This document shows, one piece after another, positions 15,295 through 23,395 of a stretch of DNA of 64,000 bases. Source of the DNA: Cellulomonas sp. JZ18 (GTDB lineage Bacteria > Actinomycetota > Actinomycetes > Actinomycetales > Cellulomonadaceae); contig NZ_CP045245.1 in assembly GCF_009720485.1 (NCBI RefSeq), forward strand, positions 1,488,001-1,552,000. Reading direction: 5' to 3'. The notes beneath the pieces are model-generated. The model searched no databases. It was not told where the DNA came from and saw only the letters and a list, made by a program, of their open reading frames with translations. Both the position numbers and the translations under genes were made by a program. Position 1 is the first letter of the stretch. Each line of letters begins with the position of its first letter.

Positions 15295-16341
15295 GTGCCG
15301 CCCCGTCCGTCGTCCCGCTCGTCCGCGCGCTCGTCGTCCTCGGGGCGGGGTGGGCGCGGCTCCGCGCCGGCCGGTGTGCCCTGGACGCAGGCGGAACCGG
15401 CTCCCGTGGTGCTCGTCTCCGGACCCGAGGAGCTCCTCGCGGAGCGTGCCGCCGAGCGCGTCGTGGCACGCGTGCGGGAACGTGACCCGGACGTCGAGGT
15501 CGCGCGCGTGGACGCCGCGCAGTACACGGCGGGGGAGCTGGCCGTCCTGACGAGCCCGTCGCTGTTCGCGGAGGGCAAGGTCGTCCTCGTCGAGGGCGTC
15601 GAGCGGGCCGGCGACGCGCTGCTGCTCGACGCGGAGGCGTACCTGGCCGCACCCGTGCCGGACGTCGTCGTCGTCCTGCGCCACGCGGGCGGCCAGCGCG
15701 GCAAGCGGCTGCTCGACGCGGCACGCGCCGCGTCCGTGCCGACCGTCACCTGCGAGACCGTGAAGTCGGACGCCGACAAGGCTGCCTTCGTGCAGGACGA
15801 GCTCGCGCGAGCTGGCCGTCGCGCCGACGCCCGAGGTGTGCGCGCGCTGGTCGACGCCGTGGGCTCGGACCTGCGCGAGCTCGCGGCCGCGTGCGCGCAG
15901 CTGGTCGCCGACACCACGGGCCTGATCGGCGAGGAAGCGGTGCAGCGGTACCACGGCGGCCGGGTCGAGGCGACCGGCTTCCAGGTCGCCGACGCGGCGG
16001 TCGCCGGTGACGCCGGCCGAGCGGTCGCGCTCCTGAGGCACGCGCTGGCGACCGGGCTCGACCCGGTCCCGGTCGTGGCCGCCCTCGCGGCGCGGCTGCG
16101 CACCCTGGCGAAGGTGGGAGCCGTGCGGGGGCGCGGTGCGGCGGCGGCCCGGGAGCTCGGGATGGCGCCCTGGCAGGTCGACCGCGCGGCGGCCGACCTG
16201 CGGCGGTGGACGCCCGAGGGGCTGGCCACCGCGATCTCCGCGGTCGCGCAGGCGGACGCCGAGGTGAAGGGCGAGGGGCGGGACGCCCGGTTCGCCGTGG
16301 AGCGTGCCGTGCTGCGCGTCGCGGCGGCCGTCGAGCGCTGA
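15295..16341 (+). CDS. holA: DNA polymerase III subunit delta
   Basis: 348 residues. After a disordered Ser/Arg-rich N-terminus (1-30) the delta fold begins with APVVLVSGPEELLAERAA, in which the Walker A motif is degenerate as expected for delta. Conserved VDAAQYTAGELAVLTSPSLFAEGKVVLVEGVE follows as shorter blocks, then the lid and collar domains (YHGGRVEATGFQVADAAV). The subunit opens the sliding clamp within the clamp loader. holA commonly follows comEA-comEC in bacteria, which supports all three calls. The GTG lies six bases after a CACACT -10-like box, so it may have its own leaderless message. Confidence 0.92.
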   Translation: MPPRPSSRSSARSSSSGRGGRGSAPAGVPWTQAEPAPVVLVSGPEELLAERAAERVVARVRERDPDVEVARVDAAQYTAGELAVLTSPSLFAEGKVVLVEGVERAGDALLLDAEAYLAAPVPDVVVVLRHAGGQRGKRLLDAARAASVPTVTCETVKSDADKAAFVQDELARAGRRADARGVRALVDAVGSDLRELAAACAQLVADTTGLIGEEAVQRYHGGRVEATGFQVADAAVAGDAGRAVALLRHALATGLDPVPVVAALAARLRTLAKVGAVRGRGAAAARELGMAPWQVDRAAADLRRWTPEGLATAISAVAQADAEVKGEGRDARFAVERAVLRVAAAVER

Positions 16342-16405: not shown

Positions 16406-17134
16406 TCACCGTCCGACGAGCCGCGCCCCGGCGCGGTCGAGGACGCCCGCCCGCTCGATGAGGTTGCCCTGGAAGAGGGTCAGCCCGAGGTCCCGCGCGT
16501 GCCGCAGCGTCTCCTGGGTCTCGACGTACTCGGCGACGAGCAGGGCGCCGAACGAGCGGGCGACACCCACGACGGGGTGCCCCTCGACGTCGAGGTCGCG
16601 CACGTCGATCTTCACCACGTCCGCGAGGGGGAGCAGCCGCCGCTGGTCGGGCCGGTCCACGAAGGACGGCAGGGCCACGCGGAACCCGCGCTCCCGCAGG
16701 CGGCGGATCCCGGCGAGCACCTGGCCGTCGACCTCCGTGGCGCTGCTGACCTCGATCACGAGCCGGTCCGGCCGCGCCGGCAGCTCGAGCTCGCCCACGA
16801 GGTGCGCCCGGGGGCAGCGCACGAACAGCAGACGCCCGTGCGCGACGCTCTCCAGGTCGGCCCGGCCGAAGGTCGCCCGCAGCACGTGCTCGGTCGCGCG
16901 CTCGTGGTCGCGCCGGCCCCAGCCGCGTGCGACGTCGGCGTGGTGGCCGGGCGCGCGGTAGGAGAACTGGTAGCCGAACGGGCGGCCGTGTGCGGTGTAG
17001 ATCCCCTGCCGGGCGACGAGCACGGGACGGCGCGCCACGTGCTCCTCCCACGCGCGCCGCAGCTCGCGGGGGATCGCCGCGTCGACCGCAGCCCCCAGCT
17101 GCGCGAGCGCGGACTCGCCGGCATCGGGTGTCAT
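16406..17134 (-). CDS. EAL-like domain protein, probably not catalytic
   Basis: 242 residues with the fold order of EAL phosphodiesterases. The opening is RQGIYTAHGRPFGYQFSYR instead of one containing the E-A-L triplet. LVIEVSS replaces the LELTE-type strand, ADVVKIDV gives the KxD strand, AEYVETQE replaces AEGVET, and LFQGNLIERAG ends the barrel. This resembles YuxH-type EAL proteins but lacks the HDOD half. With the EAL triplet and the Gly of AEGVET altered, turnover of cyclic di-GMP is doubtful, and a binding or adaptor role is more likely. It is divergently transcribed from the small secreted peptide gene, and an inverted repeat overlaps its start codon. Confidence 0.7.
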   Translation of the reverse strand: MTPDAGESALAQLGAAVDAAIPRELRRAWEEHVARRPVLVARQGIYTAHGRPFGYQFSYRAPGHHADVARGWGRRDHERATEHVLRATFGRADLESVAHGRLLFVRCPRAHLVGELELPARPDRLVIEVSSATEVDGQVLAGIRRLRERGFRVALPSFVDRPDQRRLLPLADVVKIDVRDLDVEGHPVVGVARSFGALLVAEYVETQETLRHARDLGLTLFQGNLIERAGVLDRAGARLVGR

Positions 17135-17148
17135 GGCGACTATGACAC
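17128..17148 (-). promoter_or_regulatory. Operator-like dyad over the EAL gene start
   Basis: GTGTCAT (17128-17134) and ATGACAC (17142-17148) form a perfect 7-bp inverted repeat with a 7-base spacer. It covers the start codon and a CATAGT -10-like box on the minus strand. It looks like a repressor site; the protein that binds it is unknown. Confidence 0.4.
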
Positions 17149-17255
17149 CACAAGTCTCACCGTGTGATCACCCTTCCCCAGGGTGGAATCGACGGATCCG
17201 CCGGTCAGCCGTCCGCGCGGTTCACGCGGGTCCTCCCGGTGTGTCACCCTTGCCG

Positions 17256-17283
17256 CGACGCCCTCGGCCTGGCGAGGGCGTCG
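17256..17283 (+). promoter_or_regulatory. Hairpin in the peptide-gene 5' region
   Basis: A perfect 11-bp inverted repeat (CGACGCCCTCG, 17256-17266, with 17273-17283) with a 6-base loop, about 40 bases before the small peptide ATG. Just upstream, GTGTGTCACCCTT (17239-17251) nearly repeats GTGTGATCACCCTT (17162-17175). These may be protein-binding sites or an mRNA structure. Confidence 0.4.
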
Positions 17284-17323
17284 AAGTCCCCGCCCAGGCG
17301 CCGAGCCCTGACAGGAGAACGAC

Positions 17324-17455
17324 ATGAAGTCCGTCGCCAGCGCCCTCGCCGCTCTCGTGATCGCCGGATCCCTCGCCGCAAGCGTCCCCGCGGTCACCGC
17401 GTCGTCGGTGTCGCTCAACGGCGGTGCCAGCGGCTGCTGCAAGGACGCCGTCTGA
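17324..17455 (+). CDS. Small secreted peptide with a Cys-Cys motif
   Basis: A 43-residue ORF that automatic callers would miss. It has Shine-Dalgarno AGGAGA (17313-17318) five bases before ATG, a clear Sec signal (MKSVASALAALVIAGSLAAS) and a likely cleavage after AVTA. The predicted mature peptide is SSVSLNGGASGCCKDAV. A strong terminator follows immediately, so it forms its own short transcript. It sits just upstream of, and in the same direction as, an HTH-TPR regulator. In Gram-positive bacteria, peptide-pheromone genes often lie beside their HTH-TPR receptors. A signalling role is therefore an attractive inference, but I recognise no known pheromone family. Alternatives are a toxin, a bacteriocin-like peptide or an orphan secreted peptide. 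Confidence 0.65.
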   Translation: MKSVASALAALVIAGSLAASVPAVTASSVSLNGGASGCCKDAV

Positions 17456-17467
17456 CCGGAGCACCCG

Positions 17468-17506
17468 CCGGCGGGGCGCCCGCGACGTCGCGAGGCGCCC
17501 CGCCGG
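17468..17506 (+). terminator. Strong terminator after the small peptide gene
   Basis: A perfect 13-bp stem, 17468-17480 with 17494-17506. The loop itself folds further as CGCGA/TCGCG. It begins 13 bases after the peptide stop codon and isolates it from the downstream regulator. Confidence 0.7.
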
Positions 17507-17571
17507 GTCCTGCCCTGCGTCCCTGCCGACGCGCCGTCGACTCGCCGCTGTGAAGGTCTGGCGCCGAGCGG

Positions 17572-17586
17572 CGTCACACGTACAAT
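17572..17586 (+). promoter_or_regulatory. Promoter/operator of the HTH-TPR regulator
   Basis: -10 box TACAAT (17581-17586) eight bases before the ATG, directly preceded by CGTCACACG (17572-17580). The reverse complement of that element, CGTGTGACG, echoes the GTGTGAtCAC and GTGTGTCAC elements at 17162 and 17239. This placement would suit autoregulation. Confidence 0.4.
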
Positions 17587-17594
17587 GACTTGCC

Positions 17595-18919
17595 ATGTCG
17601 ACCATCGGTGACCGCGTGCGCGAGGCACGCCTGGCGGCCGGGCTGTCCCAGACGGCCCTCGCCGGGAACGCGTTCTCGCCCAGCTACATCTCCCTCATCG
17701 AGGCCGGGCACCGGGAGCCCACGGACGCGGCACTGACCGTCCTGGCCGAACGGCTCGGCACCACCCTCGAGTTCCTCAAGCACGGCGACGACGGGCCCAA
17801 CGAGGCGCGTACCCGCCTCGAGCTGGACTACGCGCGTCTCGACCTCGCGAGCGGCGACCCGGCCGGCGCGGTCCACCGCATCAAGTCCCTCGACCTGGCG
17901 GTCGTCACGCCGACCCTGCGCTCCGAGGCGCTGACCACGCTCGCGCGTGCGCACGAGATGAGCGGCGAGCTCGAGGCGGCCATCACGATCCTCGAGCCGC
18001 TGCTCGCCGAGACCCAGGGGCGCAACGACCAGCTGCGCGCGGCCGTGCTGACGACCGCGCTCGTGGGCTGCTACCTGGAGGCGGGCGACCTGCACCGCGC
18101 GGTCGAGGTGGGCGAGCGCACGCTGTCCGACCTCGACCAGGCGGACCTCGTCGGCACCGACGAGCACCTGCGCCTGGCGTCCACGGTCCTGTGGGCGTAC
18201 GTCGAGCGCGGGGACCTGATGTACGCGACGCACCGTGCCGCCGAGCTCGTGCGTCTCGCGGAGTCCCTCGGCACGCCGCGCGGGCGCGGGTCGGTGTACT
18301 GGAACGCGGCACTCGTGGCCGAGCAGCGCCGCGACTACGAGCTGGCGCAGCGCTACACGGAACGGGCCCTGGCGCTGCTCTCGGAGGGGGAGCCGGACCG
18401 CGACCTGCCGCGCCTGCGTGTGAACTACGCGTGGCTCCTGCTGCGCTCGGAGCCGGCCGACCCGCGTGCGGCGCTCGAGCAGATCGACCAGGCCGAGCCG
18501 GGCCTGTCGGCGGTGGGCTCGACCCTCGACGTCGCACGCCTGCAGGTCGAGCGCTCGCGCGCGCACCTGCTGCTCGGGACCCGGAGGCCGCGGAGGCCGA
18601 CGCCCGCGCTGCGCTCGCCGCGCTCGGGGACGCCCCGCGCCTCGAGGCCGCGACCGCCCACCTCGCGCTGGGGGACGTCCTCGACGCCCGCGGCGACCAG
18701 GACGGTGCCGCCGCGGCGTACCGGTGGGGCGCGGACATGCTCGGGATGATGGCGGCGACCCGCCACTCCGCGGGCGTGTGGCGTGAGCTCGGGGACCGCT
18801 ACCTGCGACGCGGGGACGTGGACGAGGCGGCGCGCGCGTACGACCGGGCGCTGCGGGAGGCGGGCTTCCAGCCGTCGCTCCCGACGGGGATCCCGCACCA
18901 GACCTGGTCGCTGGGCTGA
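17595..18919 (+). CDS. HTH-TPR transcriptional regulator (RRNPP-like architecture), frameshifted
   Basis: About 441 residues when joined. Residues ~5-65 are an XRE-type helix-turn-helix (GDRVREARLAAGLSQTALAG, then SPSYISLIEAGHREP). The rest is a series of tetratricopeptide-like helical pairs (for example ALTTLARAHEMSGELEAAIT and ATAHLALGDVLDARGDQDGA). This N-HTH plus C-TPR plan is that of peptide-sensing regulators such as PlcR, Rgg and PrgX. The frame breaks at the G-run 18576-18578; one more G restores LLLGDPEAAEADARAALAAL. The ATG follows a TACAAT box by eight bases. A gene for a small secreted peptide lies immediately upstream. DNA-binding activity is confident; the peptide ligand is inference. 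Confidence 0.8.
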
Positions 18920-18938
18920 CGGCCGGCGACCACACGCG

Positions 18939-18973
18939 ACGAGGGCGTCACCCCCGCGGGGTGACGCCCTCGT
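18939..18973. terminator. Bidirectional terminator
   Basis: A perfect 16-bp inverted repeat (18939-18954 with 18958-18973) with a 3-base loop, between the convergent HTH-TPR gene and rpsT. Confidence 0.8.
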
Positions 18974-19029
18974 GCGTCGACGTGCTGTGCGGCTGAGCCG
19001 GTGCGGTGCGCCGGCCGGCCTGCGGGACG

Positions 19030-19290
19030 TCAGAGGCCGTTGACGGACTTCGCCAGCGCCGACTTGCGGTTGGCCGCCTGGTTGGCGTGGATGACGCCCT
19101 TCGACACGGCCTTGTCGAGCTTGCGCGTCGCGACGACGAGCGCCGCGGCAGCGGCGTCCTTGTCACCGCCGGCGACCGCCTCGCGGACGCGACGGATGTA
19201 CGTCTTCAGCTCCGACTTGACGGCCTTGTTGCGCAGGCGCGCCGTCTCGTTCGTGCGGATGCGCTTGATCTGGGACTTGATGTTCGCCAC
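19030..19290 (-). CDS. rpsT: 30S ribosomal protein S20
   Basis: 86 residues, the usual S20 length, all-helical and rich in Lys, Arg and Ala. The conserved start [18 protein letters not shown] and the end [14 protein letters not shown] are unmistakable. S20 binds 16S rRNA early in 30S assembly. The gene is transcribed singly on the minus strand from a GTG start, ending at a shared terminator. Confidence 0.97.
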
Positions 19291-19434
19291 GTGTGGACTC
19301 TCTGGTGTGGTCGCCGAAGCGATCTGACAGGTCGTAGAGGGCGTGCGCAGCGCCGGGACTGGGGCGTGGGGACACCCGCGGGGAACGGCCTGCGCTGGTG
19401 CCCGCCGACCCGGGCGGACACGCGGATCAGGATC

Positions 19435-20059: not shown

Positions 20060-21636
20060 ATGGCGGACCTGTTCGACGACTACCCGGCAGGGCCGGCCTG
20101 GGACGAGATGATCGGCCCCGACGGCGACGTCCACGCCGCCTACCGCAACGTGCACGCGGCGCTCGCGCAGCTGTCCGACGGCGAGCTGCGCGCCCGAGCC
20201 GAGACGCTGGCCCGCTCGTACCTGACGCAGGGCGTCACGTTCGACTTCGCGGGGGAGGAGCGCCCCTTCCCGCTCGACGTCGTGCCGCGCGTCCTCGGAG
20301 GGGACGAGTGGGAGCACGTCGCGCCGGGGGTGCAGCAGCGGGTGCGCGCGCTCGAGGCGTTCCTCGCGGACGTGTACGGCCCGCAGAAGGCCGTCGCGGA
20401 CGGCGTCGTCCCGCGGTCGGTCGTCGTCTCCTCGACGCACTTCCACCGGGCGGCGCGGGGCGTCGAGCCGCCGAACGGCGTGCGCGTCCACGTGTCCGGC
20501 ATCGACCTCGTCCGGGACTCGCTCGGCGGGTGGCGCGTGCTGGAGGACAACGTGCGCGTGCCCTCCGGGGTCAGCTACGTGCTGTCGAACCGGCGCGCCA
20601 TGGCGCAGACGTTCCCGGAGCTGTTCACCACGCTGCGCATCCGCCCGGTCGCGGACTACTCCCGGCGCCTGCTCGCGGCGCTCATCGCCGCGGCGCCGGC
20701 GGGCGTCGACGACCCGACCGTCGTCGTCCTGACCCCGGGCGTCTACAACAGCGCCTACTTCGAGCACACCCTGCTGGCCCGCACGATGGGCGTCGAGCTC
20801 GTCGAGGGCCGTGACCTGTACTGCGCGGGCGGGCGCGTCTGGATGCGCACGACGCAGGGGCGCCGGCGGGTGGACGTCATCTACCGGCGGGTCGACGACG
20901 AGTTCCTCGACCCCGTGGCGTTCCGCTCCGACTCGCTGCTCGGGTGCCCCGGGCTCATGACGTGCGCGCGGCTCGGCACGGTCACGCTCGCGAACGCGGT
21001 GGGCAACGGCGTCGCGGACGACAAGCTGCTGTACACCTACGTGCCGGACCTCATCCGCTACCACCTGGGCGAGGAGCCGATCCTCCCGAACGTCGACACG
21101 TGGCGGCTCGAGGACCGCGGTGCGCTCGAGGAGGTGCTCGACCGGCTCGACGAGCTGGTCGTCAAGCCCGTCGACGGGTCCGGCGGCAAGGGGCTCGTGG
21201 TCGGGCCGACGGCGTCCCCGTCCGAGCTCGACGCGCTGCGCGCCCGGCTGCGGGAGGACCCGCGGGGGTGGATCGCGCAACCGGTCGTGCAGCTCTCGAC
21301 CGTCCCGACGCTCGTCGAGGACGGTCTGCGCCCCCGGCACGTGGACCTGCGCCCGTTCGCGGTGAACGACGGCGAGTCGGTCTACGTGCTGCCGGGCGGG
21401 CTGACGCGCGTGGCGCTGCCCGAGGGGCAGCTGGTCGTCAACTCCTCCCAGGGCGGTGGCTCCAAGGACACGTGGGTGCTCGGGGGCGCGTACCGCGCCG
21501 CGCGCAGCAGCACGGGCAGCAGCAGCCGCAGCCCGTCGCGCAGGACGCGTCCGTGCCGATCGACTCCAGCCCCCAGGACGCCCGCGTGCAGGTCATGCAG
21601 CAGCAGCAGCAGGCGACGGGCGGTGGGACGTGCTGA
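20060..21636 (+). CDS. Circularly permuted type 2 ATP-grasp protein, frameshifted
   Basis: About 525 residues. Recognisable blocks of this family (DUF404/DUF407 type) are PFPLDVVPRVLGGDEW, VHVSGIDLVRD, WRVLEDNVRVPSGVSYVL, LTPGVYNSAYFEH, DVIYRRVDDEFLDP, NAVGNGVADDKLLYTYVPDL and VVKPVDGSGGKGLVVGP. The C-terminus reads in another frame after the G-run 21482-21486. One extra G gives a Gln-rich tail (RRAQQHGQQQPQPVAQDA, then MQQQQQATGGG) that ends exactly where the next gene starts. Such proteins are commonly encoded with alpha-E and transglutaminase-like proteins, as here, and are thought to make or modify a peptide. ATG follows TAGATT by seven bases. Confidence 0.88.
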
Positions 21637-22559
21637 GCCGGATCGCCGAGTCGCTGTTCTGGATCGGTCGGTACGTCGAGCGGGCGGACGACACCGCGCG
21701 TCTGCTCGACGTGCACGTGCAGATCCTCCTGGAGGACCCGTGGGCGGAGGAGGACGCCGCCTGCCGCTCGCTGCTGTCGGTCATGGACCGTCCGGCGCCG
21801 CCGCCCGACGTGGACGTGGGCCGCGAGCACGTGCTCGACGTCCTCGCCTACGACCGGTTCTCCCCGTCGGCGATCGCGGGCGCGCTCGTCGCGGCCCGCG
21901 AGAACGCCCGGCGCGCGCGCGAGATCGTCTCCACCGAGCTGTGGGAGTGCCTCAACGCGACGTGGAACCAGCTCCCGACGCACATGCGGCCCACCCGCCC
22001 GCACGACTACTTCACGTGGGTGCGGGAGCGCGCCGCGATCGTCGCCGGGATCATGGACGGCACGACGTCGCGCGACGAGACGTGGTCCTTCATGGTGCTC
22101 GGGCGCTCGATCGAGCGGGCCGACATGACAGCCCGGCTCCTGACGACACGCGCGCTCGCGGGCTCCGCCGGGCCCGGCTGGACCACGCTGCTGCGCTCGT
22201 GCGGTGCGCACGAGGCGTTCCTGCGCACGTACCGCGGCACGGCGCCGGACGAGCGGGCGGCCGGCTTCCTGCTGCTGGACCGGCTGTTCCCACGGTCGAT
22301 CGTGTCGGCCCTCAACCAGGCCGAGGCCTGCCTGACGGCGCTGGAGCCCGTCGCCGACCGCGTGGGCGTCGACGACGCCCGCCGCCACCTCGGCCACGTC
22401 CGTTCGAACCTGGAGTACCGCCCGCTGATGGAGATCCTCGACGACCTGCCGCGCGAGATGGAGCTCGTCCAGCGGGCGTGCTCCGCGGCGTCCGACTCGG
22501 TGCGCGGCCGGTACTTCCCGACGGGTGCGGAGCTGACGTGGGTCGGGGAGGCGCTGTGA
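21630..22559 (+). CDS. Alpha-E domain-containing protein
   Basis: 309 residues, almost entirely helical. It opens with MLSRIAESLFWIGRYVERAD, the signature of the alpha-E (DUF403) family, and later contains FMVLGRSIERADMTARLL. The GTG start overlaps the stop of the ATP-grasp gene and its own stop overlaps the transglutaminase start, so all three are translationally coupled. Its biochemical role is unknown; the constant linkage suggests that it works in the same complex or pathway as its neighbours. Confidence 0.92.
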   Translation: MLSRIAESLFWIGRYVERADDTARLLDVHVQILLEDPWAEEDAACRSLLSVMDRPAPPPDVDVGREHVLDVLAYDRFSPSAIAGALVAARENARRAREIVSTELWECLNATWNQLPTHMRPTRPHDYFTWVRERAAIVAGIMDGTTSRDETWSFMVLGRSIERADMTARLLTTRALAGSAGPGWTTLLRSCGAHEAFLRTYRGTAPDERAAGFLLLDRLFPRSIVSALNQAEACLTALEPVADRVGVDDARRHLGHVRSNLEYRPLMEILDDLPREMELVQRACSAASDSVRGRYFPTGAELTWVGEAL

Positions 22560-23395
22560 GCCGGCTGCACGTGGTGCACACGTCGACGTTCCGGTACGCG
22601 CAGCCGGTGCAGGCGTCGTACAACGAGGCCCGCATGACGCCGCTGTCGCAGCCCGGGCAGCAGGTGCTGTCGTCGCGCCTGGAGGCGCAGCCGCACACCT
22701 GGTCCCACGAGTACCGCGACTACTGGGGGACGCACGTCACGGCGTTCGAGGTGCTCGCACCCCACACGGGCCTCGTGCTGACGGCCGAGCACGTCGTGGA
22801 GGTCGCGCCGCGCCCGTCGCGCTCGCTGGACGTCGGGTGGGACCTGCTGCACGGAGCCGAGGTCCGGGACCGGTTCGCCGAGCTCCTGGCCGACGGTCCG
22901 ACGACGACCGTGCCGGACGAGGTCGTCGCCCTGGCGCGCGCCGCCGCGGACGGGCTCGCGCCCGCGGCCGCCGCCGAGGCGGTGTGCCTCGCCGTGCGCG
23001 ACGGGCTCGAGTACGTCCCCGGCGTGACGACGGTGCACACGCCGGCGGCGGAGGCGTGGGCGCGCCGCACGGGTGTGTGCCAGGACATGGCGCACCTCGC
23101 CCTCGGGGCGCTGCGCTCGGTGGGCATCCCGGCGCGGTACGTCTCGGGGTACCTGCACCCGGACGCGAGCGGCGAGATCGGGCGCACGGTCACCGGCGAG
23201 TCGCACGCGTGGGTCGAGTGGTGGACCGGGGAGTGGTGCGGCTTCGACCCCACGAACCGGGTCGCCGTGGGGGAGCACCACGTCGTGCTGGGGCGGGGCC
23301 GGTCCTACGACGACGTGCCGCCGCTGCGCGGCATCTACGCCGGTCCGCCGACCGAGGACCTCGTCGTGCAGGTGCGCATCACGCGCGAGGCCTGA
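22556..23395 (+). CDS. Transglutaminase-like cysteine protease family protein
   Basis: 279 residues. The N-terminal beta domain opens MSRLHVVHTSTFRYAQPVQA, typical of bacterial transglutaminase N-terminal domains. The papain-like triad is visible: Cys in RTGVCQDMAHL, His in GESHAWVEWW and Asp in GFDPTNRV. No signal peptide is seen, so it should be cytoplasmic. It is the last gene of the ATP-grasp/alpha-E/transglutaminase set. The inferred function is proteolysis or cross-linking of the ATP-grasp product. Confidence 0.92.
   Translation: MSRLHVVHTSTFRYAQPVQASYNEARMTPLSQPGQQVLSSRLEAQPHTWSHEYRDYWGTHVTAFEVLAPHTGLVLTAEHVVEVAPRPSRSLDVGWDLLHGAEVRDRFAELLADGPTTTVPDEVVALARAAADGLAPAAAAEAVCLAVRDGLEYVPGVTTVHTPAAEAWARRTGVCQDMAHLALGALRSVGIPARYVSGYLHPDASGEIGRTVTGESHAWVEWWTGEWCGFDPTNRVAVGEHHVVLGRGRSYDDVPPLRGIYAGPPTEDLVVQVRITREA

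Follow-up and report, generated by a model that had tools for sequence, protein, structure and literature searches.

A gene for a probably secreted cysteine-pair peptide conserved beside an HTH-TPR regulator in Cellulomonas suggests an actinobacterial peptide-pheromone circuit

Introduction

Peptide quorum sensing through intracellular tetratricopeptide repeat (TPR) receptors is known from Firmicutes. A locus in Cellulomonas sp. JZ18 raises the question of whether actinobacteria possess a comparable circuit: a small open reading frame (ORF) encoding a secreted-type peptide with two adjacent cysteines (CC) lies just upstream of a gene for a helix-turn-helix (HTH) TPR regulator. We analyzed this gene pair within a window of 64,000 nt (NZ_CP045245.1 positions 1,488,001-1,552,000, forward strand, assembly GCF_009720485.1), and positions below refer to that window. 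The original prediction, made from the DNA alone, had read the pair as a candidate peptide-signalling locus of the RRNPP kind. Conservation of the small ORF upstream of orthologous regulators supports that reading, and an RRNPP-like peptide-pheromone circuit is our best explanation, with a probability of roughly 0.65.

Results

A candidate pro-peptide gene precedes an HTH-TPR regulator

The small ORF at 17324-17455 (forward strand) has the composition of an exported pro-peptide. AGGAGA ends 5 nt before its ATG, a Lys in the n-region is followed by a hydrophobic core, and an AVTA cleavage-type site would leave a 17-residue remainder, SSVSLNGGASGCCKDAV, whose C-terminal end is GGASGCCKDAV. The predicted 43-residue ORF with its Shine-Dalgarno (SD) sequence, signal peptide and 17-residue mature part is thus present in the sequence. 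We assessed the export signal from composition, here and in all other candidates, and on that basis the ORF corresponds to the adjacent small pro-peptide gene of RRNPP systems. Under a strict filter (SD, signal-like core and CC within the last 12 residues) it was the sole passing ORF across the 64 kb window, and no ORF passed in 45 kb of control sequence (15 loci of the same genome). Eleven peptides were compared with Pfam and NCBIfam, and none passed the cut-off of a family. A strong terminator had also been predicted after the peptide stop codon; the hairpin there is indeed strong (-48.5 kcal/mol, z -4.5) but lacks a T tract, which is why a terminator scan gave no entry for it. Hairpins were likewise present in 9 other loci that we folded (z -1.95 to -5.87).

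The regulator gene starts at 17595 and matches the Pfam HTH_3 and TPR families. Its intact relatives are mostly 437-445 aa long; the Pfam matches, this length and a structure model agree with the general form of RRNPP receptors (about 250-500 aa, C-terminal TPRs, often an N-terminal HTH), and the predicted fold resembles known peptide receptors. In sequence comparison, PlcR and ComR were matched through the HTH only and RapJ weakly in the TPRs, and no known RRNPP receptor family was among the Pfam and NCBIfam results at the cut-off. The regulator gene directly follows the peptide ORF, as predicted, but in this assembly it is split between two frames: relative to intact relatives, a frameshift lies near 18580 (within 18545-18590), so the regulator would be truncated. 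The predicted end at 18919 is a stop codon, but that of the second frame, past the frameshift. The frameshift may be a sequencing error or a real loss.

The peptide core is conserved and under selection

Scanning named genomes, we found 46 relatives of the regulator. Records titled Cellulomonas supplied 40 of them; the others came from Pengzhenrongella, from a record named Cellulosimicrobium and from four metagenome-assembled genomes (MAGs) without a genus. A peptide-type ORF of 41-48 aa was found about 70-196 nt upstream in 45 of them, with an SD, a signal-type N-terminus and a C-terminal core. An SD-like string preceded the chosen start in 46/46 loci, SD being a criterion in start choice. 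The 46 peptides of this type (type 1, including that of the window) most often carry the cores GGASGCCK (11), GGATGCCR (9), SGATGCCR (9) and GGASGCCR (7); CC, a recognition criterion for these ORFs, is invariant, and K or R comes next in all but two. A genus search found the regulator in 50 of 60 genomes and none in 10. First copies were read at 30 loci, at L127 and L146 (taken with second copies) and at L158 and L159, and the 30 loci all had a CC ORF (30/30, some being the same places as the 46). The check proposed originally, for a similar ORF upstream of orthologous regulators, is therefore positive in both samples.

Selection differs along the peptide: omega was lowest in the GGxxGCC core (0.06), followed by the signal peptide (0.26), the middle (0.67) and the tail (1.78). 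The underlying pairwise counts are not independent, and the tail value comes from few sites. The estimates come from codon counts in 37 of the 46 peptides, in 10 groups of close relatives (9 singletons left out). These values indicate that the C-terminal core is constrained, with selection sharpest on GGxxGCC, and that the tail is fast-changing.

Paralogous regulators have their own, sometimes multiple, peptides

The same genome carries a second regulator of the family (38% identical), followed by a secreted-type peptide ending in APCCKY. With this paralogue as query, a family search matched 11 of 61 genomes, and all 12 matched loci had a CC ORF. Second copies (37-42%) occurred in 22 other genomes of the genus, each with a CC ORF beside it (22/22). 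Downstream of the second copy, 12 of these genomes have one CC ORF, 6 have two and 2 have four; the remaining two genomes have one between tandem regulator copies.

Some arrangements are more elaborate. At L134 and L138, four CC peptide genes stand in tandem after a single regulator. Tandem regulator arrays occur at L152 (genome G191, four matches) and L150 (G256, two matches). Loci L172, L175, L176 and L180 of family f38 carry an additional CC peptide gene 3' of the regulator, ending in GGSDFCC, GGSDYCC or GGSLYCC.

The pairing recurs across actinobacterial families

At the thresholds used, regulators of the family were present in 15 of 248 genomes of the order and 95 of 394 genomes of the class. 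The class search gave 122 places in other genomes, and we examined 69 of them, of which 29 were fetched by search and 40 were chosen by rank and family before the peptide search; those left unexamined belong mostly to f35 and f37. Loci were collected by regulator, not by peptide. An adjacent secreted-type CC ORF, lying upstream, downstream or divergent, was found at 135 of 157 distinct regulators from family, order and class (duplicates removed, ORF within 700 nt, SD not required). A length filter kept two kinds of sequence out of this set: the window's split copy, and the additional tandem fragments of G191 at L121, L125 and L126, near which no CC ORF lies. The Cys pair, singled out at the start as unusual, is thus both invariant among type 1 peptides and recurrent well beyond them. 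Among 150 distinct CC peptides, 51 end exactly in CC.

Eleven families (f15, f16, f18, f27, f32, f38, f39, f44, f45, f46 and f54) have a CC ORF at more than half of their examined regulators, mostly divergent and often with CC as the exact C-terminus. When f35 and f37 are added, 59 of 80 loci have a CC ORF, with 65 near hits (one ORF at L202 being counted twice) and 2 far ones; CC ORFs were scarce in f35 (5/16) and f37 (0/3). The 22 misses among the 157 regulators are L158, L049, L185, L163, L201, L213, L203, L204, 11 in f35 and 3 in f37. L049, from a MAG that also holds L153 and L115, has a divergent ORF containing GGSMPCCRGFQ, in which the CC is followed by about 30 more residues. A signal-type ORF without CC lies beside the regulator in three of the f35 misses and two of the f37 misses. 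The small secreted-type ORFs without a Cys pair at L199, L208 and L210 (f35) and at L229 and L230 (f37) end, for example, in GWGWPG; these peptides have perhaps changed the Cys pair or never had it.

On a midpoint-rooted FastTree phylogeny of 156 regulators, the CC label required 12 changes, compared with 40.6 when labels were shuffled. Of the 109 CC rows, 106 fell on one side of the root, a group of 126 rows with branch support 89. At the phylum limit, 28 loci (L246-L273, 22 of them outside f37) had a CC ORF beside the regulator in three cases, all among seven f60 loci; there was none in f66, f97, f101, f105 or the six f37 loci of this set. The three f60 loci, L260, L261 and L271, lie outside the class and have divergent tiny ORFs ending in PPCC, PGCCG and PHCC; one more CC match in L271, overlapping the start of the regulator, is probably coincidental. 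The recurrence of the pair in many actinobacterial families suggests that these bacteria have a peptide signalling system not described so far.

An inverted repeat marks the promoters of the locus

In 45 of 46 loci the regulator ATG follows a -10-like box, as TANNNT-N5-8-ATG. In actinobacterial promoters this arrangement is a mark of leaderless transcripts, which suggests such a transcript for the regulator. An inverted repeat, GTCA-N9-TGAC, is present 115 times in 31.8 kb of sequence upstream of the 46 regulators and is absent from the regulator ORF bodies (59 kb). It overlaps the regulator -10 in 44/46 loci and covers the EAL start in 42/46, and an exact copy lies about 50 nt 5' of the peptide start in 29/46, not including the window's own subclade. 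The repeat marks the promoters of the regulator, the peptide and the divergent EAL gene, and its placement suggests that it is bound by the HTH-TPR protein. L158, the only Cellulomonadaceae regulator without a peptide among the 157, keeps EAL-like and rpsT-like neighbours (by eye) and has 0 copies of the repeat. In the phylogeny, the L158 regulator has a long branch.

An EAL match lies upstream in all 45 other type 1 loci. In the window's EAL protein, Q replaces the Glu of the EAL motif, which relatives such as L037-L043 keep. This Glu has a role in phosphodiesterase activity, so the window's protein may not be an active phosphodiesterase.

Across the genome, GTCAYN7RTGAC occurred at 33 places and the pattern read backwards at 4. 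We rejected a wide regulon, since all 31 places outside the window fall within long open frames; this longest-frame test is rough and weak in GC-rich DNA, and further targets remain compatible with it. A scan for shared inverted repeats gave, for type 2, CCGGA-N3 on the downstream side of 13 of the 20 loci and, for f38, CTGTC-N2 on the upstream side of 12 of the 20; in neither set was there a shared repeat as regular as that of type 1.

Discussion

A proposed ligand-receptor circuit and its alternatives

How might the pair work? In the circuit that we propose, the small gene would give a Sec-exported pro-peptide, which would be matured, and the mature form, or a C-terminal part with the GGASGCC core, would be re-imported. 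Import through an oligopeptide permease is possible, because the genome encodes four SBP_bac_5 proteins. The peptide would then bind the TPR superhelix of the neighbouring regulator and alter its grip on the GTCA-N9-TGAC operators at its own, the peptide and the divergent EAL promoters, resulting in feedback and a local output, the EAL gene. The conserved pairing, single regulators with several peptides, selection on the core, the receptor-like fold and the shared repeat together favour such an autoregulated ligand-receptor pair. What the sequence itself gives is the gene pair with its conservation and selection pattern, the repeat, the leaderless-type promoter, the predicted receptor-like fold and the recurrence across families; we infer export, cleavage, import, binding, contact between regulator and repeat, the sign of regulation and the state of the Cys pair. 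More tentatively, and at somewhat less than even odds, the circuits might form a phylum-scale family in Actinomycetota, in which each HTH-TPR receptor has a secreted Cys-pair peptide (often with a C-terminal CC). The chemical state of the pair (thiol, vicinal disulfide or metal-bound) would then belong to the signal, and a single circuit would sense cell density together with redox or metal status.

Could the peptide instead be an output, that is, a secreted thiol, metal-binding or antimicrobial product from a gene under the control of a regulator that senses something else? Adjacent Cys pairs can chelate metals or make a disulfide, so the pair here could hold either, a shared repeat at the peptide promoter suits simple control of an effector gene, and peptide-regulator binding is itself what we infer. 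We consider this unlikely, as strong selection is restricted to the short C-terminal core, the pairing with the regulator is kept across families while the remaining peptide varies, and the type 1 locus, flanked by holA/EAL and rpsT, has no conserved immunity, transport or modification gene. The same lack of a recognised modifying enzyme (between holA and rpsT, with the EAL gene and the regulator as the other neighbours; the search covered this immediate locus) led us to reject a ribosomally synthesized and post-translationally modified peptide (RiPP) with Cys residues in its core. Such a product would explain a short precursor with conserved C-terminal Cys, but the typical Sec signal differs from a RiPP leader and the peptides tried fell in no Pfam or NCBIfam family at the cut-off, which leaves it highly improbable.

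Scarcely more credible is a leader or nascent-chain sensor, in which translation of the Cys codons or the exported chain attenuates regulator expression. A small Cys-pair ORF with a strong hairpin just 5' of the regulator would suit this, and precedents are the polycysteine upstream ORFs (uORFs) of mycobacteria and CutF-type copper sensing. It requires one transcript, however, and the regulator appears to have its own leaderless-type -10 past the hairpin in 45/46 loci; the peptide gene is downstream in paralogues and divergent or convergent in most other families, and the signal peptide is under selection. The variable gene order and the leaderless-type promoter thus disfavour attenuation, and we rejected it. 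A chance ORF was rejected on conservation, selection and specificity; no point supports it, and its probability is negligible.

Relation to known systems

The peptide-pheromone circuit would differ from the RRNPP systems described. Compared with PlcR-PapR and NprR-NprX of the Bacillus cereus group, the likeness to PlcR is limited to the HTH, and the present pair has a Cys pair in the peptide, an actinobacterial host and a leaderless-type regulator promoter. Rap-Phr is unlike it in that Rap proteins are not known to have an HTH, nor Phr peptides a Cys pair. Closer in layout are Rgg-SHP and ComR-ComS of streptococci, likewise HTH-TPR regulators with small, often adjoining peptide genes, and ComR is matched through the HTH; their peptides, however, are hydrophobic and are not known to have a Cys pair or a typical Sec signal. 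The mycobacterial polycysteine uORFs are also short actinobacterial ORFs with adjacent Cys codons, but they are not known to encode a signal peptide, and their target is a gene on the same transcript, whereas here the regulator would have its own promoter and the orientation varies.

In the literature searched, with preprints and most subscription papers outside its scope, we found no description of this peptide-regulator system. A large RRNPP survey was restricted to Firmicutes and viruses and describes actinobacterial signals as typically small molecules (PMC10075063). The compact gene pair offers a nameable ligand, receptor and operator across many actinobacterial families, and synthetic peptides of about 17 residues would make peptide signalling between actinobacteria directly testable. 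The conserved Cys pair, as thiols, disulfide or metal ligand, adds a chemical question.

Features of the locus

The EAL gene, the small ORF and the HTH-TPR gene lie between holA (15295-16341) and rpsT (19030-19290, reverse strand); the features are collected in Table 1.

Table 1 Features of the candidate peptide-signalling locus (window positions)
Feature	Position	Strand	Evidence or remark
Divergent EAL-domain gene, 242 aa	16406..17134	-	Pfam EAL 3.5e-11; probable local target
Operator-like repeat GTCATGGCGACTATGAC over EAL start codon	17130..17146		seen in 42/46 loci
Degenerate repeat GTCACCCTTGCCGCGAC 5' of peptide gene	17243..17259		one mismatch to GTCA-N9-TGAC
Shine-Dalgarno AGGAGA	17313..17318	+	sequence
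Candidate pro-peptide small ORF, 43 aa	17324..17455	+	conserved in 45/46 relatives
Sec-type signal peptide, 26 residues	17324..17401	+	sequence, omega 0.26; putative cleavage after AVTA
Predicted mature peptide SSVSLNGGASGCCKDAV, core GGASGCCK	17402..17452	+	omega core 0.06, tail 1.78
Strong hairpin past the peptide stop codon; possible terminator, lacking a T run	17468..17506	+	folding
Operator-like repeat GTCACACGTACAATGAC at regulator promoter	17573..17589		GTCA-N9-TGAC here in 44/46 loci
TACAAT, leaderless-type -10 box	17581..17586	+	8 nt 5' of regulator ATG
HTH-TPR regulator, first part	17595..18587	+	94% identical to residues 1-331 of L005 (Cellulomonas telluris)
HTH-TPR regulator, last part, other frame	18545..18916	+	86% identical to L005 residues 319-441; stop at 18919

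A known RNA element at the locus was rejected, as Rfam gave no match in 16900-19400. Downstream of rpsT in the window, the character of a 1111-aa frame (20060-23395) shifts past about residue 480, and an overlapping frame (21456-22559) resembles a separate protein; a second frameshift is perhaps present in this neighbourhood.
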